Below the pieces are notes generated by a model. It saw only the letters and a program-made list of their open reading frames with translations, did no database searches and was not told where the DNA came from. Shown piece by piece: positions 33,021 to 40,072 of a stretch of 64,000 nucleotides of DNA (positions within the stretch are counted from its first letter, which is position 1; each line of letters starts with the position of its first letter). The position numbers and the translations under genes were made by a program. The DNA comes from Thermotoga sp. SG1 (lineage in GTDB: Bacteria > Thermotogota > Thermotogae > Thermotogales > Thermotogaceae). The stretch is from NCBI RefSeq assembly GCF_002865985.1, contig NZ_LNDD01000003.1, positions 186,001 through 250,000 of the forward strand. The letters are read 5' to 3'.

Positions 33021-34147
33021 CAATCGATCACTTCCCTATAGGTAGATGCATAGTTTTTTATGAATCTGTCGTATAATTCTTCATAACTGTGATTTGTGAC
33101 ACCTTTTCTATCCAGTTCATCAAGTATCTTGAAGAGATTCAACACAATCTCTTCTTCTTTCGAATAAATCTCGTCCGTCAATTCACTCACACATCCTACA
33201 TCCGTACTCACAACAGGAACACCTTGGTTCAATGCCTCAAGTACCACAAGTGGCATTCCTTCAGAATCGGAAGTGAGCAAAAACACATCAAAATCAGCCA
33301 TGAGCTCTACTGCGTCTTTTCTAAAGGGAAGAAAGTACACCTTCTTTGCCACATTTGGATGTTCATCGAGCCATTCCTGCACAAGTTTTCCGTAAATATC
33401 ATCCACTACACTTCCTCCGATCCATACAAAGACAACATCATCTTTTTCTTTAAGAACCAATCTTGCCACTTCGAGAAATCTGAGAGGATTTTTTGGTGGA
33501 TCGAGTCTTGCCACGTTTCCTATTATTTTTATGTTTTCTGGTATGCTAAGTTCTTTTCTCAGTTTTCCCTTAGGCGCAGGTGGCTGAGGAATTAAAGCAT
33601 TTGGGATGATAACGTACTGTGAATCTTTTCCTATCTTCCACTCTTTGGCCTTCAGAAGGTCTCTGTGACATAACAAAACTATCTTATCGCAGAATTTCGC
33701 TGCGAACCTTTCAGCGAGGATAAGGAACTTTCTTTTTAGGCCTCTGTACTGTTCCACTCCCCACCATCCGTGAACTGTGTAAATTACATTTTTTACTCCT
33801 GATGTTTTTGCTGCCATTCTTCCAAGAAATCCAGCCTTTGAAGAATGACAGTGAACCACATCGTACTTTCCAGATTTTATAATTTTTCTGATCTGTAGAT
33901 AAGCTTTCAAATCTTTCAGAGGAGAGATTTCTCTCACCAGATCAGGAATAACATGTACTTTTATGTTCAGCTTCTTCAGCTCTTCTATCAACTGGCCATT
34001 TTCCGGACCACACGCAACTTCAACTTCAAACTGATCTGGGTAGTACTTTTTCAAACCGTAGACTATGGAGTAGAGTACTTTTTGGCCGCCTGCCCAGTCT
34101 GATCGTGTGATCAACTGCAAGATCTTTATTTTGCCCCTCTTCTCCAT
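33020..34147 (-). CDS. Glycosyltransferase family 4
   Basis: 375 residues. The N-terminus ILQLITRSDWAGGQKVLYSI and VVHCHSSKAGFLGRMAAK are typical of GT4 enzymes acting on lipid-linked sugars. The donor domain has GNVARLDPPKNPLRFLEVA and LLTSDSEGMPLVVLEALNQGVPVVSTDVG. GGAGG lies 7 bases before the ATG. It overlaps the sugar transferase gene by 22 bases, so it likely adds the second sugar to the lipid carrier. Confidence 0.9.
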   Translation of the reverse strand: MEKRGKIKILQLITRSDWAGGQKVLYSIVYGLKKYYPDQFEVEVACGPENGQLIEELKKLNIKVHVIPDLVREISPLKDLKAYLQIRKIIKSGKYDVVHCHSSKAGFLGRMAAKTSGVKNVIYTVHGWWGVEQYRGLKRKFLILAERFAAKFCDKIVLLCHRDLLKAKEWKIGKDSQYVIIPNALIPQPPAPKGKLRKELSIPENIKIIGNVARLDPPKNPLRFLEVARLVLKEKDDVVFVWIGGSVVDDIYGKLVQEWLDEHPNVAKKVYFLPFRKDAVELMADFDVFLLTSDSEGMPLVVLEALNQGVPVVSTDVGCVSELTDEIYSKEEEIVLNLFKILDELDRKGVTNHSYEELYDRFIKNYASTYREVID

Positions 34148-35352
34148 AACACAGCCTCCACTGTTTGAAGAATGATCCTGAGGTCTAGAAAGATGTTTCT
34201 GTTTTTCACGTACCAGAGGTCGTAACTGAGTTTCTTTTTCACTTCTTCCAGATTGGATGAATACTTGTACATGAGTTGAGCCCAGCCGGTGATACCAGGT
34301 TTTACTTTGTGCCTCAGGTGGTAGAAGGGAATTTGCTTTTCGAAGATCCTGACAAATTCTTCCTGTTCAGGCCTTGGTCCAACAACACTCATGTCTCCTC
34401 TAAGAACGTTTATGAACTGAAGGACTTCATCGAATCTGAGCGGTCTGATGAATCTTCCCACTTTCAGTATTCTGTCTTTTTCCTGATCCACAAATTTCGG
34501 TGAGTCCTTTGGTACGTTCCTCATGCTGCGAAACTTCATCATCGTGAAGACTTTTCCATCTTTCCCCACTCTCTTTTGTCTGAAGGCCACAGGCAATCCA
34601 TCTTCCAGATATATAATTATAGCAACCACAAGCATGATGGGTGAGAACACAGCGAGTGCCACAAGGGAAACGACGATGTCTAGAATTCTCTTTGACGGTG
34701 AGTCATCGCTTACGTTGTCAAAGGCAACTTCGTAGTACTCTCTGAACTTTTCCAGGACTTTCAGAGGGATTCTTTTGAGTGTTCTTTCCACAAGGTTTGG
34801 AAGGTACTCAACACGGTTGATGTTCACCTTTTTCAGAACATCTTCGAACTCTGGATCTGCTAGAAGGACTCCATCGTAATGGGTAACTTTTCTTTTCAGG
34901 GTTTCAACGGTTGGGTTTATGTACTCTGCAAAGCGGTACTTTCCCATCGTTTTTTCTTCTATCTCTTTCAAAATGGGCTCTATTTCTTCCTTTTTTCCCA
35001 CAACAAGGAACGTTTTCGTGGGCTGGTTTTTGATGAGGAGTTTTCCAAAAAGGGTGTTTATAGGAGGGATCAAAACGACGGAGATCAAAAAGTTGTAGAA
35101 GAAGTTGTATCGAGTGATGTCTTTTTCGAAGAGGGGATAGAAGAAAAGAACCAGTATAAAAGAAAAAATGGTGCCAACAGTTGTTCTTATGAGTTGTTCG
35201 TTGTAGTTTTGAACATTTTCAAGGTCGTAGAGCCTGAAGGCAAAGAAAGAAAGGGTCATACAAAGCGAAAGGAGGATTCCCACGTACCAGTTAAAAAAAG
35301 GGAGGTTGAGTGCAAAAAGCACTACAAGATCGAAGACGATCAGTTGATACAA
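34126..35352 (-). CDS. Polyprenyl-phosphate sugar-1-phosphate transferase (initiating transferase)
   Basis: Starts repeat-unit synthesis by moving a sugar phosphate to undecaprenyl phosphate. The N-terminal half has four to five membrane segments and a CoA-binding-like region. The C-terminal catalytic domain (about 220-408) shows PIMLVVAIIIYLEDGLPVAF, RQKRVGKDGKVFTMMKFRSM and VGPRPEQEEFV, the WbaP/PglC core motifs, and PGITGWAQL. TTG at 35352 is 9 bases from a GGGGGG site; an earlier TTG at 35376 is less likely. Confidence 0.92.
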   Translation of the reverse strand: MYQLIVFDLVVLFALNLPFFNWYVGILLSLCMTLSFFAFRLYDLENVQNYNEQLIRTTVGTIFSFILVLFFYPLFEKDITRYNFFYNFLISVVLIPPINTLFGKLLIKNQPTKTFLVVGKKEEIEPILKEIEEKTMGKYRFAEYINPTVETLKRKVTHYDGVLLADPEFEDVLKKVNINRVEYLPNLVERTLKRIPLKVLEKFREYYEVAFDNVSDDSPSKRILDIVVSLVALAVFSPIMLVVAIIIYLEDGLPVAFRQKRVGKDGKVFTMMKFRSMRNVPKDSPKFVDQEKDRILKVGRFIRPLRFDEVLQFINVLRGDMSVVGPRPEQEEFVRIFEKQIPFYHLRHKVKPGITGWAQLMYKYSSNLEEVKKKLSYDLWYVKNRNIFLDLRIILQTVEAVLWRRGAK

Positions 35353-35378
35353 AGCACTCGCCCCCCCTGAATTCAAAG

Positions 35379-35789
35379 TTATTCAATACAGGTGTAAACA
35401 TCCAGACACTTTTTTGCGTACATCGGATCTGTTGCGTATCCCATTTCCTGAAGAAGTTGAAAATACAACCTGGGGTTCTTTCTTTTTGCCCAGGCTTTAT
35501 TATAACACTCTTTTATCAGAATCAGGTATGCGATCATACTGTTTTCTGGACTGACAAAGGATTGAAACGTGTCGATCGTCTTCACACCGTCGAATTCTTT
35601 CGTCTGTGCTGTGACAGCGCCTTCTAGCCAGGAAAGTTTCTTTATTCCAAAGAGGTTGTTTCCCACCACGTGCTTTCCCCATCCTGTCTCGAGTGCAGAC
35701 TGGGCAAGGAGGATCTTTCTGTCTATTCCTGTGAGTCTTTCCAGAAGAAAAGCGGTCTCGCCGAATCTTTCGAGAAACTTTTCTTTCAC
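35379..35789 (-). CDS. Glucosaminidase-domain peptidoglycan hydrolase (FlgJ-like)
   Basis: 136 residues made of one glucosaminidase domain: [29 protein letters not shown] (catalytic Glu in ALETGWG), [22 protein letters not shown] and ATDPMYAKK are family motifs. There is no signal peptide, so release would need another route. GTG start with GGAGGTGACA. It is set off from the four small genes upstream by a terminator at 35803-35828 and sits before the sugar transferase gene. Confidence 0.85.
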
Positions 35790-35802
35790 ACTGTCACCTC
35801 CA

Positions 35803-35828
35803 GAAAAAAGCGGGGAAGACCCCCGCTT
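35803..35828 (-). terminator. Intrinsic terminator between the sigma-like gene and the glucosaminidase
   Basis: On the minus strand GAAGCGGGG, a short loop and CCCCGCTT are followed directly by a run of T. The stem overlaps the stop of the upstream gene, and the glucosaminidase ribosome site starts 4-5 bases after the T run. It could act as an attenuator. Confidence 0.85.
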
Positions 35829-36202
35829 CAGTTCTGTATTATCTCTTCATCGTCCAGATCCTTTGGATGTTGTGGTTTTTTGAGGTACTCCGGCTTCAGT
35901 ATGCTGAAGGGAAGATCACAGCAGTGGGGAGGAGTTTTGCCCGCTATGATGTCGTTCATCTTTCTGTTTATGATGCACTTGAAGTAAGGTTCGAATTCTC
36001 CCCTGTCTTTGTTCCATGTTCTGTAGGCGTAGCAGAACAGATAGCATATCGTCTGATAGAGGTCTTCGAAGGAAAGAATCTTGTAGTCGTACTTTCTGAA
36101 GAAATATTTTGCCTTCTTTTGTAGATCGCTTTCGTGCTTTTGAAAGAGAGATTCCAGTGAGAGATCCTCGTCGCTGGTTCTCTTGAGGTTTCTTCTAACC
36201 AT
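35828..36202 (-). CDS. Small sigma-70 region 2-like protein
   Basis: 124 residues. [71 protein letters not shown] matches the helical layout of sigma region 2 in small alternative sigma-like proteins, including the DLYQ core-binding style motif, but no region 4 is present. ATG start at 36202, overlapping the preceding gene by 8 bases. It may control its own cassette or be a phage-type regulator; unproven. Confidence 0.5.
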
Positions 36203-36428
36203 GATTCCACACCCGATCGTTGAAGAAGTCCACTACGAAGTCTATCGCATAATCTAGAATGTGTTCGAAGATGTCATCGTCGAAGGAAAGATCGATTCCA
36301 AAGTCGTCGAAGAGGCTGAAGACGATCTCTTTCACCTCTTCTTTTTTGGCCTCACCGTCCCCCGGTCTTTCGACCAGGGAGACGGCAAGAGGAAGGACGT
36401 CCTTCAAAATTGGAAGTATCGCCATCAT
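36195..36428 (-). CDS. Small acidic protein of unknown function
   Basis: 77 residues. A hydrophobic N-terminus (MAILPILKDVLPLAVSLVE) precedes a charged linker (GDGEAKKEE) and a very acidic helix region (FDDFGIDLSFDDDIFEH). GGGAGG precedes the ATGATG. I do not recognise it; the hydrophobic-plus-acidic form recalls small holin-accessory or phage proteins, but that is a guess. Confidence 0.55.
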   Translation of the reverse strand: MMAILPILKDVLPLAVSLVERPGDGEAKKEEVKEIVFSLFDDFGIDLSFDDDIFEHILDYAIDFVVDFFNDRVWNHG

Positions 36429-36446
36429 ACAGACGCCCTCCCTTCG

Positions 36447-36656
36447 TCACTGGATGAGATCGAAGAATTCGTTTGAGTTCGTCTCCACTATAACTGCTCT
36501 GTCGATCGCGTATCCTTCCAGAACCTTTGAGTCAAGGAGTGTCTGCATGGCCGATTGAACCTGTTCTGCTGTGAGGCCTTCCACGGGGTCGTTGACGATG
36601 ATCCTTTTTCTTCTGTTTTCAGTTTCGTTGTAGAAATCCAGATAGAGCCTCTTCAT
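36447..36656 (-). CDS. DUF2922 family protein
   Basis: 69 residues (LYLDFYNETENRRKRIIVNDPVEGLTAEQVQSAM then KVLEGYAIDRAVIVET). The pattern of an N-terminal beta strand, then LTxxxVxxxMxxLLxS, is that of DUF2922, usually encoded next to DUF1659 genes in Firmicutes. Function unknown. A GGAGGTGATGTGGT site precedes its ATG. Confidence 0.7.
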   Translation of the reverse strand: MKRLYLDFYNETENRRKRIIVNDPVEGLTAEQVQSAMQTLLDSKVLEGYAIDRAVIVETNSNEFFDLIQ

Positions 36657-36670
36657 ACCACATCACCTCC

Positions 36671-36865
36671 TCATATGGTTTCGTACGTGACGAGTTGAGC
36701 GGAGACGTAGGTGTAGTTCGTGAGAGAGTCGAGGGCGTTCACTGCGTTTGCAAGGTCCTGTGCCGTTGCGTTTGGACTCACGGAGATGGTCTGCCTTCTT
36801 GTCACAGGATCTCCGTTTTCGTCCACTTCTCCTGTTGCCCAAAGGATTCTGAGAGCCTTCTCCAT
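36671..36865 (-). CDS. DUF1659 family protein
   Basis: 64 residues (MEKALRILWATGEVDENGD then TRRQTISVSPNATAQDLAN and YTYVSAQLVTYETI). The pattern fits DUF1659, a short beta-rich protein of unknown role. AGGAGGTG precedes ATG 36865. It is the first gene of the small cassette and its leader holds a perfect palindrome. Confidence 0.7.
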   Translation of the reverse strand: MEKALRILWATGEVDENGDPVTRRQTISVSPNATAQDLANAVNALDSLTNYTYVSAQLVTYETI

Positions 36866-36891: not shown

Positions 36892-36905
36892 GGACTGCGC
36901 AGTCC
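36892..36905. repeat. Perfect 14-bp palindrome in the leader of the DUF1659 gene
   Basis: GGACTGCGCAGTCC, 27 bases before the start codon. It could be an operator or an mRNA hairpin. Confidence 0.6.
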
Positions 36906-37087: not shown

Positions 37088-40072
37088 ATGAAGAAGGTTC
37101 TGTTTGCAGCGTTCCTTCTGATGGCGGCACTTCTTCTTTCCTACAGCATCAGAAAGGGAGATGTTTTGAGGGTCGAGGTTGTGGGGTATCCAGACCTCAC
37201 AAGAGACTGCACCGTCGACATCGAGGGTGCGATCACCTTTCCCTACGTGGGACGGGTGAAGGTAGAAGGTCTCAATGTTGAAGAGGTGATGAAGCTTCTG
37301 GAAGAGAAACTCTCTTTCAGTTTTTCTGAGCCAAAAGTTGTCGTGTCTCTTCTTAAAATCGCACCGAGAAGCGTCTACATCTCAGGTGTTGTGAACAGGG
37401 CCGTGGACATGGGAATGGAAGATCTCACCGTCTCAAAACTTCTTTCTCTTCTCAACAGCACAGTCGATCTTTCTTCTGTCGATCTTTCCTCGGTGAAGGT
37501 GGTAAGAAACGGAAAAGTCTACACGCTCGATCTTTCTTCTCTTCTGTGGGGAGAGATACCGGAGAAGGACATCGTGCTCCAGGAAAACGACCAGGTCATA
37601 CTGCCAGAAAAGTCCTACACGGACTTTGTGAAGATCGTGGGGGCCGTAGCAAAACCCGGGATTTATCCCTTCAAAAAGGGAATGACCCTTGTTGATCTTC
37701 TTGCGGTGGCCGGCGGTACAACACAGGAAAGTTCTGGAAGGATCGTCGTTCTATCTGGAAAAGAAACGCTTGAGGTTTCAGAGAAGGAGATCTATCAGAA
37801 AAACGTCCCTCTGAAACCCGGTGACACGGTGCACGTTCAAAAGTTAGATGAAAGGTTTGCCTACATTGTGGGAGCAGTTGCAAGGCCAGGAATGTACACG
37901 TTTTCTAAAGAAGAGTCCCTCACACTCAAAAACCTTGTGGCAAAGGCCGGGGGTCTTTCCATCGACAAAAGGTTCATCGAGAAAGTTCTCATCACAAGAG
38001 ATGGAAGAACGCTTGAGTACGACCCGGACGTTCTGGACGAAAACATCGAAATAAAAGTCGGCGATGTGGTTGAGATAAAGAAGTTCGAAAAGACAGAAGT
38101 CTACGTTTCCGGGTATGTTTCAAGGCCTGGAGTCTATGAGATCTCTCCGAAAGAAAACGTGACACTGGAAAAGCTCCTCTCCATGGCAGGGGGTATCAAA
38201 GGGACTCTGGAAGAGGTCGAAAGCATCGTCGTGACAAGAGAGGCCAGTGTGATCACACTCTCTCCGGACAGACTGGACTTTTCTGTAAAGCCCGGAGATG
38301 TTGTGAACGTGAAAGAGTTCATTCCGAAAAAAGCTTACATCCTAGGATACGTGAGAAATCCGGGGCTTTACACCTTCGGAAAGAGCGAAGCGTTCACCCT
38401 GAGAAACCTCATAGCAAAAGCGGGTGGCTTTGTCGATGAGAGCCAGGTCGTGTCCGTGAAGGTGGAAGGAAAGGAATACTTCACAGATGAGATCGTGAAA
38501 GAAGACATCGCTCTTGAAGATGGCGTGTTCGTCTACGTGGAGAGGTACACCGACAGGTTCGTCTACATGGTGGGAGACAACGTCTCAAGGAACGGAAAGA
38601 TGAGTTTTGAGAAGGAAGAGCCCTTCACGCTCTCGACCGCCCTTAAAAAGTACGGAATCGAGGACTTTTCTCTGATAAAGGGTCTTTCTCTTTTGAGGAA
38701 TGGAAAGGAGATGACCTTCGATCCGAAGAAGATACTTACAGAGGACGTTCCCCTCGAAAAGGGCGACACGGTCCTTGTGAGAACGGTTCAGACAAAGAGG
38801 ATCTACTTCACCGGTGACGTGTACGGCTACGTTGACTTTGCAAAAGACGAGGACATCACACTGGAGAAGGCACTTGCAAGGTTTGGGAAGGTTCAGAGAA
38901 AGTACGTTTCAGGTTTGAAGGTGATCGAAGATGGAAGGGTTCAACAGTTCGACGAACTTGTAGATGTTCCGCTCGAAGACGGTGCGGTCGTTGAGATTGA
39001 TCTGAAAGAGTCGATCAGAGTCTACGTGGACGGCTTTGTGAGAGCACCTCAAATGGTTATGTTCGAGGTGGACGAAGCGCCACTTCTTGACAGGGCGATC
39101 GTGAAGGCAGGAGGATACAGAGAGGACGCGCTCTTTGAGGCAGGAAACATAACGGTTCTGCGAGACGGCCATGAGATCACCGTTCCAAAAGAGCAGGCAA
39201 GCTCCTTCGAACTCGAAGATGGAGATCTTGTCTTTGTGAGGTACAGAGAGAAAACCCACGTGTACGTCTTTGGTGAAGGGATCACGAACACGCTCGTCAC
39301 CTTCGAAGACGAAGAGACTCCTACTCTGAGAAGCGTTCTTGGAAAAGTCGGCGGTGTGAAGAGCACAGGCTCTGAGAGAATCGTCGTTGTGAAACCAGAC
39401 GGAGAAAAGAAAGAGGTGAACTACGAGGACGTGATAGAAACAGGTGGCCCCGTCCTTGAAAGCGGCAGTGTGGTCTTTGTTCCGCTTGAGACAGAAAACT
39501 TTGCCTACGTGGTCGGAGAGGTGGCACGTCCAGGAGCTTACGAGCTCAAAGGAGACGTAACCCTTCTGAAACTGATCGCACAGGCAGGGGGCCTGAGCAA
39601 CTGGGCTCTGAGAACGAAAGTGGTCCTGAGAAGGGGAGAAAAAGAGTTCACCTACGACTTCACCAACATAGAAGAGGTTCAGAACGTGAAGGTGGAGCCA
39701 GGTGACGTGGTGTACGTTCCGCCCGTTGAGACAAATTACGTGTACGTTCTTGGAAACGTGAGAAATCCGGGTATTGTGAAGGTGGACAAGTACTCGACCG
39801 TGTTCGATGTGGTGATGAGGGCAGGTGGATTCACAGACAGGGCGGCGACAAACAGGACCTTTCTCTTCAAAGGTGGTCCTCAGGGAGAGGTGACAGTCTG
39901 CGATCTGTCCGGGGTGCTATCTGGAAAGGGAGGCGGAGTGAACCCGAGTGTTTCACCGGGTGACGTAGTCTTCGTTCCAGACAACCCACTCATACAGGTG
40001 ACGGAGGCACTCTCTATAGTGAACACCATATTCAACACAGTCAAAAACGTCAAAGACGTGATGGGGTGGTAA
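37088..40072 (+). CDS. Wza-like polysaccharide export protein with about eleven SLBB-type repeats
   Basis: 994 residues. Residues 1-19 are a signal peptide. Residues 20-95 are the Poly_export domain (IRKGDVLRVEVVGYPDLTRDCTVD...VEGLNVEEVMKLLEEKL). Then SLBB-like units repeat about every 75-80 residues, each with a strand such as YIVGAVARPGMYTF, YVSGYVSRPGVYEI, YILGYVRNPGLYTF, YVVGEVARPGAYEL or YVLGNVRNPGIVKV and a xLLxxAGG helix. I count about eleven, some diverged (YFTGDVYGYVDFA). Wza itself has two. A long periplasmic tube or spacer reaching the toga is plausible. GGAGG precedes the ATG. Confidence 0.85.
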   Translation: MKKVLFAAFLLMAALLLSYSIRKGDVLRVEVVGYPDLTRDCTVDIEGAITFPYVGRVKVEGLNVEEVMKLLEEKLSFSFSEPKVVVSLLKIAPRSVYISGVVNRAVDMGMEDLTVSKLLSLLNSTVDLSSVDLSSVKVVRNGKVYTLDLSSLLWGEIPEKDIVLQENDQVILPEKSYTDFVKIVGAVAKPGIYPFKKGMTLVDLLAVAGGTTQESSGRIVVLSGKETLEVSEKEIYQKNVPLKPGDTVHVQKLDERFAYIVGAVARPGMYTFSKEESLTLKNLVAKAGGLSIDKRFIEKVLITRDGRTLEYDPDVLDENIEIKVGDVVEIKKFEKTEVYVSGYVSRPGVYEISPKENVTLEKLLSMAGGIKGTLEEVESIVVTREASVITLSPDRLDFSVKPGDVVNVKEFIPKKAYILGYVRNPGLYTFGKSEAFTLRNLIAKAGGFVDESQVVSVKVEGKEYFTDEIVKEDIALEDGVFVYVERYTDRFVYMVGDNVSRNGKMSFEKEEPFTLSTALKKYGIEDFSLIKGLSLLRNGKEMTFDPKKILTEDVPLEKGDTVLVRTVQTKRIYFTGDVYGYVDFAKDEDITLEKALARFGKVQRKYVSGLKVIEDGRVQQFDELVDVPLEDGAVVEIDLKESIRVYVDGFVRAPQMVMFEVDEAPLLDRAIVKAGGYREDALFEAGNITVLRDGHEITVPKEQASSFELEDGDLVFVRYREKTHVYVFGEGITNTLVTFEDEETPTLRSVLGKVGGVKSTGSERIVVVKPDGEKKEVNYEDVIETGGPVLESGSVVFVPLETENFAYVVGEVARPGAYELKGDVTLLKLIAQAGGLSNWALRTKVVLRRGEKEFTYDFTNIEEVQNVKVEPGDVVYVPPVETNYVYVLGNVRNPGIVKVDKYSTVFDVVMRAGGFTDRAATNRTFLFKGGPQGEVTVCDLSGVLSGKGGGVNPSVSPGDVVFVPDNPLIQVTEALSIVNTIFNTVKNVKDVMGW

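Follow-up and report, generated by a model that had tools for sequence, protein, structure and literature searches.

The window analysed here is a 64,000-nucleotide stretch of the genome of Thermotoga sp. SG1. It carries five consecutive small open reading frames, all on the minus strand, with polysaccharide genes downstream, which bears out a preliminary description that had placed five genes at the head of a polysaccharide operon. The first gene (36671..36865, with its start at 36865) encodes a DUF1659 protein (PF07872, E=6e-13, 48.8 bits). It is followed in transcription order by genes for a DUF2922 protein (36447..36656; PF11148, E=9e-15, 54.9 bits), a 77-residue protein, p77 (36195..36428), with 78 homologues in Thermotogota loci, a sigma-70 region-2 protein without region 4 (35828..36202; PF04542, E=3e-6, 27.5 bits) and a glucosaminidase with a GH73-type domain and no signal peptide (35379..35789; PF01832, E=1e-22, 81.3 bits). 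The next gene of the operon, on the same strand, encodes a Bac_transf initiating sugar transferase (34126..35376; PF02397, E=2.5e-64), whose longest frame would start 2 bp after the glucosaminidase stop, and further polysaccharide genes follow. Divergent from the cassette, a plus-strand gene (37088..40072) encodes an SLBB polysaccharide-export protein with Poly_export and SLBB domains; its eight SLBB_2 and six SLBB matches are above the usual few.

The preliminary description had also assigned a strong ribosome site to each gene. Good Shine-Dalgarno sites can be read from the sequence for four of the five, but that of the sigma-like gene is weak; this gene instead shares its first 8 nt with the end of p77, an arrangement suggestive of translational coupling. 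Within the cassette leader lies a perfect palindrome, GGACTGCGCAGTCC (36892..36905), which is unique in the genome, is kept in most Thermotoga and shows a paired A-T to G-C change in L123; it is a candidate operator or leader hairpin. Scans for promoters and terminators gave matches at chance level only. Selection was estimated from six Thermotoga genomes together with one sister genus. Within Thermotoga, omega was 0.02-0.13 for DUF1659, DUF2922 and p77 (0.02-0.12 for DUF1659 alone), and DUF1659 gave 0.43 against the sister genus. Values for the glucosaminidase were 0.06-0.16 and those for the sigma-like gene, where calculable, 0.12-0.33. The cassette genes are thus under purifying selection and are not chance open reading frames, a reading that was dropped on account of this selection.

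Both DUF proteins exceed the curated cut-offs of their families (48.8 versus 24.1 bits for PF07872 and 54.9 versus 25.5 bits for PF11148). Profile-profile alignment of DUF1659 with DUF2922 (hhalign) gave a probability of 94.7% and E=6e-8, and judging from this comparison the two are distant paralogues; similar comparisons of the pair with the p77 and sigma-like families returned nothing. AF2 models of both proteins are confident (pLDDT 93.6 for DUF1659 and 89.7 for DUF2922) and predict for the pair a strand-strand-helix-strand(-strand) topology, of which DUF1659 has the strand-strand-helix-strand form. A PDB structure search with the two models gave no match below E=0.2, and PDB sequence searches gave nothing usable. 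The top PDB matches of DUF1659 included phage phi29 p6 (E=0.28, TM about 0.5), which is a lead only, while the best viral (BFVD) match of the DUF1659 model, an uncharacterised phage protein at E=0.004, is too weak for so small a fold. In neither DUF1659 nor DUF2922 does any hydrophobic stretch reach the length needed for a signal sequence or a membrane-spanning helix. The Thermotogota are non-sporulating bacteria. A domain-frequency study of 2010 placed DUF1659 among sporulation domains; since the family is present in this phylum, sporulation is unlikely as its general role.

Of 103 Thermotogota genomes searched, 82 gave a DUF2922 match and 61 a DUF1659 match, and both families were also matched in Thermotoga maritima. 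A look for expression data on the T. maritima homologues yielded none. Several apparent absences of DUF1659 resemble, by eye, divergent copies; in several genera of family f10, for instance, a 66-69 aa protein between p77 and DUF2922 is a putative divergent DUF1659. A scan of genome contigs returned Thermotogota only. In this phylum DUF2922 usually comes directly after DUF1659, often with p77 and the sigma-like gene next. Over 94 mapped DUF2922 places, the commonest architectures were DUF1659-DUF2922-p77-sigma (25) and DUF1659-DUF2922 (23), followed by DUF1659-DUF2922-p77 (14) and DUF1659-DUF2922-sigma (10). The glucosaminidase was present at seven of these places, all of them in Thermotoga or one sister genus. 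The five genes had been taken as one set; the part conserved across the phylum is the DUF1659-DUF2922 pair, to which p77 and the sigma-like gene are often added, and the glucosaminidase is restricted. A tree of the concatenated pair tracks host families, needing 10 label changes where the minimum is 9 and shuffled labels average 45.7, and the cassette therefore appears to be old and mainly vertically inherited in the Thermotogota. One of the 10 changes is an apparent horizontal transfer, in which an f3 genome (L075, G079:C16) carries a DUF1659/DUF2922 cassette of the type of f10 genus g32. In one Thermotoga genome (G094), a degraded additional copy of DUF1659/DUF2922 lies close to a different polysaccharide gene (L126:9351-9775).

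The link of the cassette to polysaccharide genes is non-random. Bac_transf and PF01832 are each represented by a single gene in the window genome, and both genes are at the cassette. Across the phylum, DUF2922 lies within 10 kb of Bac_transf in 28 of the 67 genomes that have both, where random placement expects 1.4; the 67 genomes are related by descent and so are not independent, and the count is conservative because assembly breaks were scored as misses. This proximity spans 12 of 27 genera and four families. Random variation of the neighbours among genomes, named in the preliminary description as a refuting result, was looked for and was not the pattern seen. The remaining immediate neighbours are diverse, with 93 Pfam families among 76 proteins. 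The cassette is co-directional with Bac_transf in Thermotoga and in genera such as g34 and g35 of f10, divergent from it in f3 (g12/g13) and f10 (g29/g30) and convergent in f2. The link has therefore survived rearrangement, and a pure synteny relic was dropped as an explanation on account of these three orientations.

A wall hydrolase beside an exporter recalls FlgJ, which serves the flagellar rod. By analogy, the glucosaminidase could cut a local gap in the peptidoglycan for the polysaccharide exporter, with the small proteins positioning it. The two proteins share the catalytic domain family PF01832 and, on this reading, specialised wall opening, and FlgJ is the best NCBIfam match of the cassette enzyme, which is the only PF01832 protein found in the genome, in a single copy. 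Further, the sugar transferase runs in the same direction as the cassette in all seven Thermotoga-type loci, and the exporter gene points away from the cassette in the window and in most Thermotoga relatives. However, the match to FlgJ (TIGR02541) reaches 81.8 bits against a cut-off of 193, the cassette enzyme lacks the FlgJ N-terminal part and any export signal, and it is not beside flagellar genes. Most Thermotogota cassettes that adjoin sugar transferases have no hydrolase, and polysaccharide genes are absent from the viewed stretches around Bacillota plasmid copies. We consider a wall-opening role of this kind very unlikely. As most Thermotogota cassettes have no adjacent wall hydrolase at all, the hydrolase is not part of the core in this phylum.

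The third slot of the cassette is held by p77, which has a hydrophobic N-terminal helix, a VERPGDGExKK motif and a hydropathy of 1.93. Its alignment to the LL-H holin family PF09682 (Phage_holin_6_1; E=0.066, 14.1 bits) is under the curated cut-off of 24.9. Homologues of p77 align to the tail of this profile, positions 51-86, with 14 of 41 at E<=0.1; in contrast to the LL-H holin, the N-terminal helix of p77 is short, and only about half of the homologues pass a simple transmembrane hydropathy limit. The identification of p77 as a putative holin is thus weakly supported. Nor is p77 established as a YvrJ protein, because a YvrJ model built here matched essentially nothing in Thermotogota loci (one marginal match). 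In f10 genus g32, judged by eye, another small protein, with a hydrophobic helix at its N-terminus and a likely coiled coil, takes the third slot, and a small protein resembling a winged helix occupies the fourth.

In the sigma-like protein, PF04542 is matched above its cut-off of 24 and is the only domain found. Region 2 was matched in 26 of 31 homologues and region 4 in five, all with a longer C-terminal tail, and some homologues in the phylum carry a region-4-like HTH tail. The simplest reading is of a small sigma factor that originally had both domains and whose region 4 disappeared in the Thermotoga line. A parallel exists in Bacillus subtilis, in which yvrJ, the gene for a protein that occupies the third slot of many cassettes outside the Thermotogota, belongs to the regulon of the split sigma factor SigO-RsoA and is transcribed by it (PMC8103513). 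Both systems have a region-2-only sigma protein, the Thermotoga copy matching region 2 without region 4. They differ in that no region-4 partner gene is among the five cassette genes and in that several Thermotogota homologues combine region 2 with an HTH tail.

This parallel raises another possibility, in which the sigma-like protein would act on core RNA polymerase as RsoA does and activate the polysaccharide genes, the hydrolase being incidental; the same reading would make DUF1659, DUF2922 and p77 signal-sensing or anti-sigma partners. Besides the RsoA precedent (PMC8103513), it draws on the phylum-wide exopolysaccharide link, on the sigma-like gene in most of the fuller cassettes and on the single conserved divergent promoter region with its palindrome. 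Yet the supposed switch is the fastest evolving gene of the cassette (43-69% identity) and is missing from many cassettes, the cassette encodes no region-4 partner, and the pair outside the Thermotogota accompanies holins and lysins. Such an exopolysaccharide switch is, in our view, rather unlikely.

A link between DUF1659 and DUF2922 beyond this genome had been noted from the outset, and the pair does recur outside the Thermotogota, including on dozens of Bacillota plasmids. Downstream of the pair, these plasmids and members of three further phyla typically carry YvrJ or a holin together with a signal-less wall hydrolase. In 32 of 53 non-Thermotogota loci, a YvrJ gene occurs on the strand of the pair no more than 1.5 kb downstream of it. 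Wall-hydrolase families were matched by 31 of 44 picked neighbours, which is not an unbiased rate as the 44 were chosen as plausible operon members; they comprise Amidase_2 (9), Amidase_3 (7), M15_3 (6), Glucosaminidase (5), M15_4/VanY (2), GH108 (1) and CHAP (1). The lysin slot is thereby filled by wall hydrolases of at least six unrelated chemistries, and the exchange of unrelated lysins in one slot is typical of lysis modules. In the G138 phylum, this slot is also filled by a glucosaminidase. A Dp-1 holin, a sigma factor and a CHAP protein stand beside the pair in Aerococcus, and a ComK-like regulator is found near it on plasmid copies. In genus g192 of the G115 phylum, the pair has no lysin and lies beside a DUF4388 protein.

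We tentatively favour, as possible if still short of probable, a regulated release device of the holin/endolysin type (type 10-like) with a DUF1659/DUF2922 core, tied to exopolysaccharide in the Thermotogota. It is favoured because a regulator, a membrane-slot protein and an interchangeable hydrolase make up a holin/endolysin layout (PMC9527704) and because yvrJ is transcribed by SigO-RsoA (PMC8103513). The window cassette has putative counterparts of these parts: the region-2 protein is of the dedicated sigma or regulator type, and the glucosaminidase, which has no hydrophobic N-terminus and matches a PHROG endolysin at E=2e-28, resembles a signal-less endolysin-type hydrolase. In such a device, the conserved core proteins would probably assemble together and serve as leaderless cargo or as the cytoplasmic partner of a membrane component; they could equally regulate the membrane protein. 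The small membrane-associating protein of the next slot (p77, or YvrJ or a holin elsewhere) would breach the inner membrane, and the signal-less hydrolase, where present, would open the peptidoglycan. The set would be switched on by a dedicated regulator, either a ComK-like protein or a sigma protein with region 2 and, in some cases, region 4, and in the Thermotogota would serve an exopolysaccharide or biofilm programme. Gene order, family membership, conservation, the exchange of unrelated proteins within a slot and the exopolysaccharide linkage are observed, whereas membrane breach, cargo role, sigma activity and any lysis are inferred. Most Thermotogota would have to obtain a lysin from elsewhere or dispense with it, which is the main weakness of the model. 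The earlier idea of a lysis, secretion or wall-opening module therefore holds up in the context outside the Thermotogota, with YvrJ or holins and signal-less hydrolases, and fits less well in the Thermotogota, where most cassettes have no hydrolase.

Holin/endolysin release loci as such are known. Bcn5-type bacteriocin loci (UviA sigma factor, UviB holin, amidase and leaderless bacteriocin) and TcdR/TcdE-type loci for holin-dependent secretion of clostridial toxins combine a sigma factor, a small holin, an endolysin and a leaderless product in one locus (PMC9527704), an arrangement that the cassette would share on the favoured reading. The cassette differs in that its core is a pair of paralogues of about 70 aa rather than a bacteriocin or toxin, in that its membrane slot holds p77 or YvrJ, with the hydrolase often absent in the Thermotogota, and in that the Thermotogota form is chromosomal, vertically inherited across the phylum and exopolysaccharide-linked. 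We found no paper that covers both DUF1659 and DUF2922 or describes the module, and have not found described a DUF1659/DUF2922 core with exchangeable membrane protein, regulator and hydrolase that is vertical across a phylum and tied to exopolysaccharide. The module unites three uncharacterised families (DUF1659, DUF2922 and YvrJ) and p77 under one testable function, so that the roles of the three families become directly testable in laboratory strains. It is also a concrete candidate exit route for leaderless proteins, DNA or thick polysaccharide.

Two further readings start from the same evidence. The pair may be cytoplasmic, antiholin-like gatekeepers that set when the membrane protein acts in an altruistic lysis module, with lysis freeing matrix components, DNA among them, for the biofilm. 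The constancy of the pair beside changing holin and lysin types and the exopolysaccharide link are in keeping with this; but a gatekeeper should vary together with its holin, whereas the pair stays constant, and most Thermotogota cassettes have no lysin, and the proposal is distinctly unlikely. Alternatively, the two proteins may co-assemble, as its two subunits, into an export or pore-gating structure of a hitherto unknown kind common to the Thermotogota and Bacillota-type phyla, in which the small membrane protein and interchangeable hydrolases release contents or polymers under sigma or ComK-like control as part of exopolysaccharide (biofilm) production in the Thermotogota. Taken with all its parts, this structure is unlikely.

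A domesticated phage module had also been suggested. The cassette might be what is left of a phage lysis region or of a mobile element, retained by chance; the holin and endolysin families in the wider set, the many copies on plasmids with recombinases and a gut-virome report of the DUF2922 (PF11148) and YvrJ (PF12841) families in viral contigs (PMC11170907) point in that direction. However, the queries run against phage records and viral contigs did not recover the pair, the window cassette is flanked by polysaccharide genes and by no phage structural genes, and the cassette is under purifying selection and vertically inherited throughout the Thermotogota. A prophage lysis module is thus not supported, and a phage or mobile remnant is largely contradicted and extremely improbable. 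The absence of the pair from viruses is not absolute, given the reported viral contigs (PMC11170907). These may themselves be plasmids, because a 19.8-kb Paraclostridium plasmid (L227, NZ_CP079741.1) carries much the same five families, namely DUF2922, YvrJ, an amidase, a recombinase and a Mor activator. Small plasmids of Lactobacillus and Psychrobacillus (L224, L225 and L226) carry the cassette with a tyrosine recombinase, SSB, a 'replication initiation factor' protein and either a LysM protein or an amidase.
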